NCBI RefSeq assembly: GCF_029633865.1
Contig: NC_079219.1
Span: forward strand, 19,669,717 to 19,733,716
Length of the DNA stretch: 64,000 bases
Source: Lampris incognitus
Lineage: Eukaryota; Chordata; Actinopteri; Lampriformes; Lampridae
Direction: 5' to 3'
The notes under the pieces were generated by a model, which had not been told where the DNA came from, did no database searches, and was given only the letters and a program-made list of their open reading frames with translations. Positions 13,036 through 37,719 of the stretch are shown here, in pieces. Each line of letters starts with the position of its first letter. Positions within the stretch are counted from its first letter, which is position 1. A program made the translations under genes and the position numbers.

Positions 13036-13544
13036 TTGTGTCCAGATGAACTGGTTCAACTTTCTGTGAATAGAAAATTGATTTTCAGAGCATCATTAAA
13101 TGGCACCAGGTAACATCTCAGTTTCATGCCATAACAAACTTTCTATTAATAGCATCTGTATATATTTTTTGGGTCCTTTGTTATATTGCGTTTGGTTGTG
13201 TGTGGTGTGTGCGCGTTTGTTTTCGCTGTCCACGGCTAATCTACTGAGCCTATAAGCCTGATTTTTTATTTTATTTGTTTGCAGTTATGACTGTATGATC
13301 AAGAACCTCTCGTGGTTGGGGTGATTCAAAACCTTTGAAAAACATTTGTTCTTGCTACAGCCGCTCCCTCTCTTCATTCACTCTCTAGTTAGCCAACATT
13401 GCTCTCTATCACTATCTGATCTAAGTCAACCTGATGTACGACTCTTGATTGTATTTTGCAAATCGTTCACTCTCAGCACAGGAGAACTGGAGGAACACTG
13501 GATGAACCAAAAAATAACAACTTCTGTCATTATTTTCATAGTAT

Positions 13545-14832
13545 TGTAGCAAATTCAGGGGGCAGCCGGGAACCGCCGCATCCAGGATGCGAACCCTGTT
13601 CGGACCCTTTAGTCGACTGGTTAGTGCAGTCGGGCAACCTTGATTCGCAACCCGGCTGCGGCGGTTCCCGGCTGCCCCCTGAATTCACTACATTGGTGTC
13701 ACAAGTGGGATGGTGAGACTGTGAGGCCTCTGGGCGCACGTGCTTCCTATGGCCTCATAGTCTCACCATCGCACTTCTGACACCAATGTAGCAAATTCCA
13801 GGGGCAGCCGAGAACTGCTGTAGCCGGGACCCGAACCTGGATCTCCCGCACCATGGGTGACTATGTTAACCAGTCAACTAAACCCATTTAAACCCATCCA
13901 ACACATTTGCCAAGGGCTAGCTAGTCTAATCATCTGTGGTCGTTACACTACCCCGCTCCTTCAGGAAGCACGTCCCCGCGTTTCAGCATACTAGCTCCCT
14001 CACGTCTCTGGGTGCAAGCACTTCGAATGGCCTCATGGTCTCACCATCCCACTTCTGACACCAATGTAACGAATTCTGGGGGCAGCCGGAAACTGCCGCA
14101 GCCGGGACGCGAACCTGGATCTCCTGCAGCATGGGCAACTACGTTAACCAGTTAACTAAAGGGTCTGACCCGGGTTTGCACCCCGGCTGCGGCGGTTCCT
14201 GGCTACCCCCTGAATTCACTACATTGGTGTCAGAAGTGAGATGGTGAGACCGTGAGGCCATCAGATGTGCGCATGCCCAGAGGTGTGCGGGGGCTGATAT
14301 GCTGAAGCCCAGGGATGCACTTCCCAAAGGAGGGGGTAGTGTAACGATCACGAATGACTAGATTTGCTAGCTTGTTGGCTAACGGGTCAGACCTTTTAGT
14401 CGACTAGTTAGCGCAGTCTCCCGTGGTGCGGGCGACCCAGGTTCGCAGCTGGGACACGAACCCGGGTCGCCCACACCATGGGCGACTGTGCTAACCAGTC
14501 GACTAAGTCCGACCTGGGTTAATGTACCGGCTGCGGCAGTTCCCGGTTGCCTCCTGAATTACATCAGTGGAGAAGTGGGATGGTGAGACCATGAGGCCAT
14601 TGGAAGCGTGTGCACCCAGAAGTGTGAGGGAGCTGGTATGCTAAAGCGCAGGGATGCGCTTCCCGAAGAAGGGGGGAGTAGTGTAATGATCATGAATGAG
14701 TAGACTCACTAGCCAGTTAGCTAACAAGTCGGACCCTTTAGTTGACTGGTTAACGTAGTTGCCCGTGGTGCGGGAGATCCGGGTTTGTGTCCCAGTTGCA
14801 GCAGTTCCCGGCTGCTCCCCGAATTCGCTACA
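13545..14832. mobile_element. Palindromic array of very short LTRs (TRIM-like, tRNA-Leu primed)
   Basis: Built from a short LTR (TGTAAYGATC...GCTACA; the complete right-hand one is 14682-14832, 151 bp), a primer-binding site TGGTGTCAGAAGTGGGAT complementary to the 3' end of tRNA-Leu, about 100 bp of non-coding internal sequence and a G-rich tract (GAAGAAGGGGGGAG). PBS copies: plus 13694-13711 and 14225-14242, minus 13768-13785 and 14046-14063. LTRs on the plus strand are at about 14340-14563 and 14682-14832, and on the minus strand at about 13787-13952. No coding. Both outer ends are LTR 3' termini, inverted, between GTAT repeats (13541-13544, 14833-14836). Confidence 0.75.
14396..14506. repeat. 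Long inverted repeat inside one short LTR
   Basis: Arms of about 50 bp (TTAGTCGACTAGTTAGC... and its reverse complement ending GACTAA) face each other inside the 14340-14563 LTR, making it about 70 bp longer than its neighbour. Confidence 0.75.
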
Positions 14833-14836
14833 GTAT

Positions 14837-16226
14837 GATAAAGCCGGGTAAAAAGTTTACGCTCGCACATGCACAACTTACATCTACAACTGACTTTTCC
14901 TGGTAGACGAAAAAAGGGGTGGTTTGTTGCCAAGTCTGAGCACCGGAGAAGGGTAGATAAGCCTGGCGAGGATATCCTCTTGTTCATATCTGATACTGAT
15001 TATTCCGAGTCACTATCCATTCAGTTTAAAGTGGAACAAATCCCCCAGGTCTGAGCTTAACTCCATCCACTGTATAATTTTGAAAAAATGCTAAGAAGTG
15101 GGCATGGTGCTTTTGAGGGGGGTAGGGTTTGGATGTGTGAGGCAGAAGCATGAGCAGGAGTAGCTGGGGAGATCATGAGAAGGACACAGCCCCGAGTCTC
15201 TGGCCCGCCGCCATACCCAGTCCCCTCCACATAGACGCCCCAACCGCCACGATGCAGATGCACCGCAGATGGAAGGGGCCGAGATGCAAGACGGCCCGTG
15301 GCTTTCTGGCGGCGGAGAGAGAGGGGCGATGGGACGACTGCTCCCCCAGCCGCAGGGCGAGCTCAGTCTGACTGGCCCAGTTGTCCGGTTGTGCTTCTAC
15401 AGCTGTCGAAAGCACCAGTGCACCACAATTTAAAATGATGAAATGAAACAATATAACTATAACTAACTGTAAATTAAGAGAAATTCAAAAGGTTGGTAGA
15501 AAATGAAATAAAGGCACAAGTTTAGCGAGTCTTGATCAGTCTCGGTCATATTTGAAAATGAGCATGGTTTCATGGACTCACACTGAAGGGCGGGGCTGGG
15601 GAGGTGGGTCATCCATTTCTGATTAGAGAGCATTAACATTCTTTTTCTTTTTTTTTAATTTCATGACATATATAAGTCCCAACCTGTTGACTCTGTGTCA
15701 GCGTGGGCCTTGCAAGGTTCAGAGCTGATTTAAAACAGTAGATGGCGTGTTGAGCCATTCTGAACCCATGAAATGCCGATTTTTTAAAAATAAATTTGGT
15801 AAGAAATGTCAATATCAACACCAGCATTGATGTGTTTCATCAGTGTAGTCATATCATTCAGTTTACAACTCAAGGAACACGTTTAAGTGTTTAGCACCTC
15901 TTTAATAAATTCAAACCTGTAAAGTCCTGGAAGGAGAGTATAGTTTACAGACAGGTTTAGACAAACACATACATAAAGAAGCATTAACGAAAAGGCCAGT
16001 TAATATGAACAACGAAAGTAATAAGTTGATAAAGTAGAGACATAAAGACAGGATGAGAAGCAGACAGACAGACAGAGATCATCAGACACAGAACTAAGAG
16101 AGACAGCTACAATTAGAGAGGCATCAAAATAATTCTTGGCCAATACAGACATGATTTATCCCGATTTCATTTTTTGCATAAAACCTGCCAATTTAACAGG
16201 GGTGTGTGGCCTTTTTATATCCACTA
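14837..16226. other. Stretch with a GC-rich patch, no recognised gene
   Basis: 15130-15400 is CpG- and GC-richer than its surroundings and holds overlapping open frames on both strands (e.g. minus 15451-15173). None resembles a family I know. Confidence 0.5.
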
Positions 16227-24159: not shown

Positions 24160-25300
24160 ACATTACTCCCTACAGAAACCAACTTTGGGGGATTCCGCTG
24201 AAAAGATAATTATTCAGCATAACATCCAACAGCAGACCACACACTGGTATTCCTTGTTCGTTTTCAAATACATACTGTAGAACATTGTAAACCATACCAT
24301 TTGAGAAAGTTTTGTGATTCACAATGTAACAGCTCAAAAGACGGGCTCGTCCGGGATTTGAACCCGGGACCTCTCGCACCCTAAGCGAGAATCATACCCC
24401 TAGACCAACGAGCCTATAAGCTCAACAGTTTAAATACAAATTCCAGAAGTTACAGTTCTGCCACGTTGTCTCAAAGTTCAGACTTCTGATTCTCTCCGTT
24501 AGTTTACCCTGAGCTGCCATCTACTGGCGTTTTATGTTACTGCAGCTTATTGCTGTAACATAAAAACCAACACCTCACAGAGGGAAACTGCATACGACAA
24601 TGTCAATTTAAAAAACATTTTCCTTCTATCTAACTATATATCTAACAAGGCCATTGCACTTTGTAAAAATTAATGTGCAAATCCTGTTGAAAAAATTCAT
24701 ATATCCACAAGGCCCTGATATAATTCCCAATTTTATTGAGTTTTTTTTTTAAACATTTATAGACATAAATCCAGCTTTAAGAAAAGGCAACATGCAGGTG
24801 ATAGCAGCACATTTCAAACGCACACATTCAAAAAAGAACATCCAACAAAACATGTCCAAACAAACAACAGGGTGACATTTTTCTTTGAGCCTCCAACAAA
24901 AGATCCAAATTGAGAGGTAGCGTTCAATTTCAACCCTAGAAAAAAAAGGTCAGAATATGGATTAAAAAAAAAAAGAAAAAAAAAGGCTTTGTCCAAGACA
25001 TATGTCTTATGCTAGGTTTTACTGAGCCACAAACAGCTTATTTCCTTTAAGCAACTGCTGCCTGTGTAAAGTAAAGTATACTTTGGCTGTTGTGAGAGAA
25101 ACTGAAGGTAACACACTACATTTGCAGAAGGGACTGAAGAAGTGAAGAGTTGACTTCACCTTGTAACTTAACACCACCTGTCACGTACATAGAGCTCACG
25201 CCTGTTTCTGGCCATGCATCTGGGAATGCTTACAACCGAAGCTGTCTAAACTTAGTTTGGTACCACCGATGCCCTGAGCACAACCCGTCCACAGTCACAG
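24160..25300 (-). repeat. tRNA-Pro segmental duplication, unit A (longest)
   Basis: Diverged flanks shared with units B and C surround the tRNA: the CTTTGGGGGA block at about 24184, CCATCTACTGGCG at about 24517, the CACAAGGCCCTGATATAATT block at about 24705, GCCACAAACAGCTTATTTCC at about 25026 and a GATGCCCTGAGCACAACCC block at about 25268. Sequence between the landmarks aligns in order. Confidence 0.8.
24343..24414 (-). tRNA. tRNA-Pro (anticodon AGG), copy 1
   Basis: 72 nt folding as a standard cloverleaf. The 7-bp acceptor GGCTCGT pairs with ACGAGCC, discriminator C. The anticodon stem-loop is CTCGC-TTAGGGT-GCGAG, giving AGG. A box TGGTCTAGGGG; B box GGTTCAAATCC. A TTTT Pol III terminator follows within 4-8 nt (24339-24336). 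No intron. It lies downstream of NT5C3A in duplicated unit A. Confidence 0.95.

Positions 25301-26324: not shown

Positions 26325-37719
<11,395 letters not shown>

Follow-up and report, generated by a model that had tools for sequence, protein, structure and literature searches.

Two-U5 LTRs and inverted arrays of a Helenus-type TRIM in Lampris incognitus, a possible by-product of self-primed reverse transcription

Helenus elements are TRIMs, short retroelements, with a tRNA-derived promoter (Kojima 2024, PMC10886601). As summarized in the main text of that source, animal Helenus elements have 4-bp duplications, vertebrate members are primed by tRNA-His, -Leu or -Lys, the zebrafish element LTR-11_DR forms tandem arrays, and the elements are said to be unlikely to encode a functional tRNA. 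A further trait of animal Helenus elements is mobilization by a Gypsy element that shares their primer site. In HIV-1, as portrayed in PMC4668388, the minus strong-stop cDNA self-primes and is a source of aberrant cDNA. Here we describe an inverted TRIM cluster in a 64,000-bp stretch of the Lampris incognitus genome (the window) and weigh the reading, to which we give a rough probability of 0.55, that it is a Helenus-type TRIM whose inverted architecture arose mainly as a by-product of reverse transcription, through self-priming, strand transfer, and integration by U5 ends.

The array occupies positions 13545-14832 of the window (1288 bp), and all of its pieces derive from one TRIM, the ingredients being U3, tRNA-like sequence, U5, and an interior roughly 115 bp long. 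A sequence-only reading of this DNA had proposed a TRIM-like fold-back element, and the observation behind it was confirmed on inspection. Direct short LTRs, a primer site, a purine tract, a length below 1 kb, and the lack of coding sequence were found in ordinary copies at many loci and in the window pieces; the longest stop-to-stop frame in the array has 76 codons. The proposed outer ends proved exact when the coordinates were rechecked (TGTAGC at 13545, GCTACA at 14832), GTAT is present on both flanks, and the supposed LTR length of about 150 bp is matched by an intact LTR of 151 bp at 14682-14832 (TGTAATGATC...GCTACA). Four primer sites, two per strand, were recovered with 0-1 mismatch to a 17-nt query that we take to be the tRNA-Leu 3' end: 13694-13710 (+), 13769-13785 (-), 14047-14063 (-), which is the perfect match, and 14225-14241 (+). 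The next best site in the 64 kb has 4 mismatches.

Read from left to right, the array begins after a GTAT at 13541-13544, a candidate 4-bp target duplication, with an LTR that carries a U5 end on both sides (B1, 13545-13692, +), an inverted short U5 half being followed by forward tRNA-like sequence and U5. The junction between the two halves, designated J1, lies at 13589-13614 and is read on the minus strand. There follows a palindromic internal segment (13693-13786) with a primer site at either end, forward interior at 13693-13728 passing into reverse interior at 13729-13786, and then an ordinary LTR in reverse (13787-13947, -). The next reverse internal segment (13948-14064, -) has its purine-tract side at 13948 and the perfect primer site at its other end, and it adjoins a second two-U5 LTR (B2, 14065-14223, -) with J1 at 14154-14179; B1 lacks 11 bp of the tRNA-like part that B2 has. 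A forward internal segment (14224-14339, +), with its primer site at 14225-14241 and a purine tract at its end, leads to a composite LTR (14340-14565, +) that is ordinary to about 14444 and continues as inverted tRNA-like sequence (14445-14506), a J1 minus three bases, and a short U5 half. The last internal segment (14566-14681, +) starts with a fifth, decayed primer site and carries a purine tract, and the array closes with the ordinary forward LTR at 14682-14832 (+) and the right-hand GTAT at 14833-14836. The two-U5 LTRs B1 and B2 did not figure in the sequence-only reading; since such LTRs are real and recur at other loci, a plain TRIM without inversion was ruled out.

Every good primer site in the window faces a U5 end, every purine tract faces a U3 end, and both outer ends of the array are U5 ends, each next to GTAT. 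The inverted arms measure 170, 117, 106, and 105 bp and are 77-86% complementary, while homologous pieces share about 66 to 92% identity. Because the interior turns at 13728 and the strand turns from forward to reverse at about 14444, one simple palindrome is insufficient, and at least two further turns are needed for the window. Pieces from eight other loci alone cover 1250 of the 1288 array bases, the longest gap being 21 bp (13883-13903), and cover nothing else within 13401-15000; this coverage replaces an earlier piece-by-piece gap count that was partly circular because the window itself had supplied most of its pieces. Where microRNAs matched the window palindromes, we regard the hits as hairpin artefacts. 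Elsewhere the window contains three tRNA-Pro (AGG) genes on the minus strand (24343-24414, 28238-28309, and 31696-31767), each within a longer repeated segment. A reading frame at 28922-29590 matches the DDE_Tnp_1_7 transposase, presumably piggyBac-like, and another at 8677-9255 matches the DDE_3/HTH_Tnp_Tc3_2 transposase, which we take to be Tc1-like.

The general plan of the family is an LTR of about 150 bp with a predicted tRNA-type pol III promoter, a tRNA-Leu primer site, the interior, and a purine tract. In the forward LTR at 14682-14832, a box A (TAGTTGACTGG, 1 mismatch) lies at 14739-14749 and a box B-like motif (GGTTTGTGTCC, 2 mismatches) at 14782-14792. This pair of boxes, a feature missing from the sequence-only reading, occurs at tRNA spacing on the sense strand of 52 of 98 LTRs, compared to none on the antisense strand and 12 of 1960 shuffles; the modal spacing is 43 bp. 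Together with the primer site, which matches tRNA-Leu perfectly over the 17 nt of the query, the purine tract, the lack of coding sequence, and the exact 4-bp duplications at 12 of 15 ordinary copies, the boxes make the family fit Helenus. The assignment is by features, the named Helenus families having been compared by description. No tRNA match in the LTRs came from ARAGORN on the window or from Rfam, for which the E cutoff was 1 on six loci and 10 on 13400-15000; both programs look for complete tRNAs, whereas Kojima's searches were made with Censor and tRNAscan-SE. A functional tRNA within the LTR is thus unsupported by either search, and the case for descent of the LTR from a tRNA rests on the boxes, since neither program recognizes the stretch as a tRNA.

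The family is very abundant. A 25-mer of the ordinary LTR across the predicted RNA-start region has 23,030 matches with up to 3 mismatches in the 1.48-Gb genome, against 1 for the reversed control; one scan of viral contigs for copies returned none. At C1:8455284-8456562 this 25-mer recurs, mostly every 141-143 bp and in one orientation, resembling an LTR-only tandem array without interiors.

J1 (...CTAAAGGGTCYGACC joined to YGGGTT...) is a single junction that unites two U5 ends in one LTR at the predicted RNA start. Allowing 3 mismatches, 24 copies were present at 23 of 60 distinct loci; besides the J1 minus three bases in the composite LTR of the window, L054 has a more decayed junction resembling J1. 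Two hits stand outside the census, one in L024 with 6 mismatches and one in L018 that is the run-on of an ordinary LTR. The 60 loci came from a first genome search, in which 40 of 10,199 candidates were scored and several loci had the arrangement of the window, from a second search, and from direct fetches; both earlier queries contain J1, so that the set is enriched for J1 and 23 of 60 is not a rate. Repeat fetches (L005, L042, L044-L047, L049-L051, L053, L056, L057, L063, and L069) and L033, a probable near-copy of L032, were dropped. Genome-wide, a J1 25-mer has 155 matches within 3 mismatches and 44 within 1 (14 exact, 30 with one mismatch, 35 with two; reversed control, 1), and many of the three-mismatch rows resemble ordinary LTRs or other sequence. 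J1 is therefore rare, at most 155 matches against the 23,030 ordinary ones. None of the 20 loci fetched from the 40 places listed by an interior-only query contained J1; among the places left unfetched, C9:25133082 adjoins a listed J1 match. Two loci of this query, L085 and L095, have inverted arrangements without J1.

The palindromic unit with two LTR 3' ends that had been proposed for the window is present at several other loci in the form reverse LTR, interior, two-U5 LTR, interior, LTR. Copies with inverted ends thus exist in the genome beside those with ordinary direct ends, though as a small minority. Inverted dimers were found at L002, L003, L004, L006, L009, and L024, the outer LTRs of some being truncated or composite, and monomers consisting of a two-U5 LTR, an interior, and an LTR at L019, L023, L025, L052, L058, and L072; L055 is less clean, with a reverse U3 adjoining its two-U5 LTR. 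Within this query-biased set of 60 loci, 37 of the 49 annotated inverted junctions run from reverse to forward, 26 of these being tRNA-like/U5, and no U3-U3 turn is among the 49. Turns inside the tRNA-like part occur at L010, L013, and L015, and L007, L015, and L017 are two-U5 copies without J1. Another type of two-U5 LTR is seen at L003:328-517, where reverse U5, tRNA-like sequence, and U3 are followed by forward U5, the turn lying beyond U3. At L060:1890-2011, in a second turn, the reverse strand again stops at GGGTC and resumes at a different forward place. L018:1097-1177 (-) matches the Type-P1 twister ribozyme (55.8 bits, E 2.6e-10, under the Rfam gathering score of 67.2), beside a Helenus LTR and partial primer site and just upstream of what by eye is RTE-type LINE endonuclease-like sequence.

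These observations bear on whether such an array could be a chance pile-up, in which copies of an abundant TRIM inserted independently into one another and deletion followed, leaving an inverted array. The abundance of the family and the wide range of identity among the window pieces would suit such a history, and at L004 a U5 end abutting a reverse LTR looks nested. We nonetheless consider a pile-up improbable, given that the spacing between LTR and primer site is kept at all four good sites, that almost no foreign bases lie between the array pieces, and that the same junction recurs at 23 loci.

The position of J1 suggests a different origin. At J1, reverse tRNA-like sequence meets forward U5 at the GGGTC found 13-14 nt upstream of box A; judging from box A, a pol III transcript should start there. 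With that start the minus strong-stop cDNA would end in GACCC, and a complementary GGGTC is found at box B of the same strand; J1 is the product expected if the GACCC 3' end primed there. We examined 60 ordinary LTRs in which the start motif is intact. In 20 of them the predicted 5-nt cDNA end finds an exact complement, at one site each, and extension from these sites yields J1 in 17 cases and J1 with a point change in 3; the remaining 40 now lack such a complement. DNA folds of three real strong-stop strands did not favour the J1 pairing, giving a smaller terminal hairpin in two and mixed pairings in the third, and folding was accordingly rejected as support for it.

We then compared the two U5 halves of each J1 LTR. 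With gaps ignored, halves of the same LTR are 0.861 identical, compared to 0.828 for halves from different loci (re-pairing p<0.0001); with gaps counted the values are 0.763 and 0.732 (p = 0.0004), and the same test on the first 14 J1 LTRs had given p = 0.014. Rare alleles common to both halves number 10, where 2.8 are expected (p ~0.001), and because the halves of one LTR share rare variants, J1 looks regenerated rather than inherited. In the control of 61 pairs of neighbouring ordinary LTRs, identity was 0.850 versus 0.837 after re-pairing (p = 0.0013), and 13 rare alleles were shared versus 8.4 expected (p = 0.08). As ordinary neighbours are also more alike than re-paired ones, part of the likeness within loci may be local homogenization.

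If J1 had a single origin, the two-U5 LTR would be an inherited subfamily that transposes as such. The identical junction at many loci would follow directly, and in the gap-counted comparison short halves are slightly more like one another (0.773) than like the long half of their own locus (0.763); the own short half is the best match for only 5 of 24 long halves. With gaps ignored the order is reversed (0.843 for short/short, 0.861 within loci), and rare alleles are shared within loci. In addition, the predicted RNA start comes only after the short half, which a normal transcript would therefore be expected to omit. Interiors beside two-U5 LTRs do not cluster on a tree on which few branches are resolved (23 changes, against a mean of 20.9 after shuffling); the tree omits 6 interiors that have other neighbours, and its two-U5 label includes L010, L013, L015, and L017, which have other turns. 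We rate an inherited subfamily as marginally less credible than a pile-up.

A stronger competitor, to which we would still assign only a minor share of belief, is template switching or repair between inverted copies in the chromosome after insertion, which would have made J1 and the other turns. J1 sits at a microhomology of 5-6 bp (GACCC/CGACCC), tandem arrays are common, several two-U5 copies are without matching flanks, and neighbouring LTRs are somewhat homogenized, all of which would suit chromosomal events. Such events would not predict the coincidence of J1 with the predicted RNA start, the private variants shared by U5 halves beyond what ordinary neighbours share, or an integrase target at both outer U5 ends. 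The dimer interiors also speak against inverted duplication of one copy, being no more alike than unlinked interiors (0.859 versus 0.860, n = 10), though the test is weak in a star-like family. Same-strand neighbour interiors are 0.885 identical (n = 32), and as they do not differ significantly from the inverted ones (Mann-Whitney p = 0.12), interior divergence was dropped as proof that dimers had two templates.

Autointegration, in which the U5 end of a cDNA attacks its own interior, is a known fate of retroviral cDNA, which counts for it here, and turns with a U5 end set against an internal site, as at L004, could be explained by it. J1 is internal on both sides and has no U5 terminus at the junction, making autointegration the most doubtful of the explanations considered and, in our estimate, very improbable.

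The target sites indicate how such copies were inserted. Outward of the U5 end, ATAT or GTAT occurs on the left flank in 10 of 15 two-U5 copies and on the right flank in 11 of 15, compared to a background of 0.74% per position. As these preferred targets stand beside both outer ends, it was probably integrase that joined the U5 ends at either side. Exact 4-bp duplications flank the 12 ordinary copies noted above, including CAAG, GAGT, and CCAG; four ordinary copies read later gave CTTC and TATA as exact duplications and two that were one letter off, for a total of 14 of 19. Two-U5 copies have exact duplications in 6 of 15 cases, where re-pairing gives an expectation of 3.1 (p = 0.019; p = 0.088 for the mean number of matching letters), three others being off by one letter and six (L015, L017, L019, L023, L052, and L058) by two or more. 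For J1 copies alone the count is 5 of 12 versus 2.8 expected (p = 0.06), and the difference between two-U5 and ordinary copies (6/15 versus 12/15) has a Fisher p of 0.06.

All 15 + 15 flank pairs were scored visually, mutated ends (L024, L026, L048, L058, L064, L066, and L072) being placed by judgement; L026 is split by an unannotated stretch. The duplication test left out two-U5 copies in which an end was truncated or could not be read (L002, L003, L006, L010, L013, L021, L043, L054, L055, and L073-L075), ordinary copies with a purine-tract remnant outside the end (L012, L014, and L018), an unreadable flank (L067 and L068), or a missing end, the mixed array L004, and the later-fetched L076-L095.

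For the window, the proposal that one unit had been integrated through two LTR 3' ends therefore stands in part. Two U5 ends do lie at a preferred target, but a single event with a 4-bp duplication does not follow: as GTAT is a preferred target of the family, the GTAT/GTAT match is fairly likely to be coincidence, and it was rejected as strong proof of one integration once the preference was found. A concerted single event is only partly supported, and no individual copy, including the window array with its GTAT/GTAT, proves it.

In the reading we prefer, by-products of reverse transcription would arise in four steps. The RNA would start at GGGTC just 5' of box A, and the minus strong-stop cDNA would end ...CTAAAGGGTCCGACCC. 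That 3' end could then anneal to the GGGTC of box B, on the same or a sister strong-stop strand, and extension to the U5 end and into the tRNA primer would yield an LTR with U5 on both sides at J1, the step whose footprint is present in the sequence. Since self-priming would leave the primer site copied at the end of the strand, ordinary second-strand transfer could carry that strand onto a full minus strand. One such transfer would give a two-U5 LTR, an interior, and an LTR, and transfers to two full minus strands would give an LTR, an interior, a two-U5 LTR, an interior, and an LTR. Finally, and with partial support from the flanks, integrase would join the U5 ends to ATAT or GTAT, sometimes with a 4-bp duplication. 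The array in the window would then be an inverted dimer with further turns and one more unit.

A broader proposition, which we hold tentatively and at slightly less than even odds, is that the self-primed minus strong-stop cDNA of an LTR retrotransposon with a pol III promoter still has a route into the genome. Through primer-site transfer it would give rise to two-U5 monomers and inverted dimers inserted by integrase, and the genome would retain recurrent fossils of these, in the tens to about 150, sharing a junction that marks the RNA 5' end. If so, a cDNA intermediate known as an abortive product has been kept at many loci with a predictable junction, and J1 would be a genomic readout of the RNA start for this class of promoter. 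It would further suggest that natural integration can use two U5 ends, and would account for part of the inverted TRIM arrays with no need for chromosomal rearrangement. In the literature searched, mostly by title and abstract opening and with subscription journals thinly covered, we found no report of integrated two-U5 LTRs from self-priming.

Compared to known systems, the family resembles Helenus, for example LTR-11_DR, in being a TRIM below 1 kb with box A and box B in the LTR, a primer site, and a purine tract; 4-bp duplications as in animals, tRNA-Leu among the vertebrate primers, and tandem arrays are further points of likeness to the description in PMC10886601. It departs from that description in its inverted copies, the terms "inverted" and "palindrom" each occurring 0 times in the main text of PMC10886601. 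Like Cassandra as portrayed in PMC10886601, it is short and has a pol III promoter in its LTR, and Cassandra forms tandem arrays as well, going by the title of a reference cited there; Cassandra, unlike this family, is of the 5S rRNA type and belongs to plants. The bivalve biv-TRIM, in the account given in PMC6934838, likewise forms tandem arrays of the type LTR(x) int(x-1) and solo LTRs, and differs in that this account describes no two-U5 LTRs and no clear primer site. The proposed priming is closest to HIV-1 self-priming as presented in PMC4668388, which also takes place at the 3' end of strong-stop DNA and is affected by the RNA 5' end; there the products are aberrant or abortive, whereas those proposed here would have been integrated.
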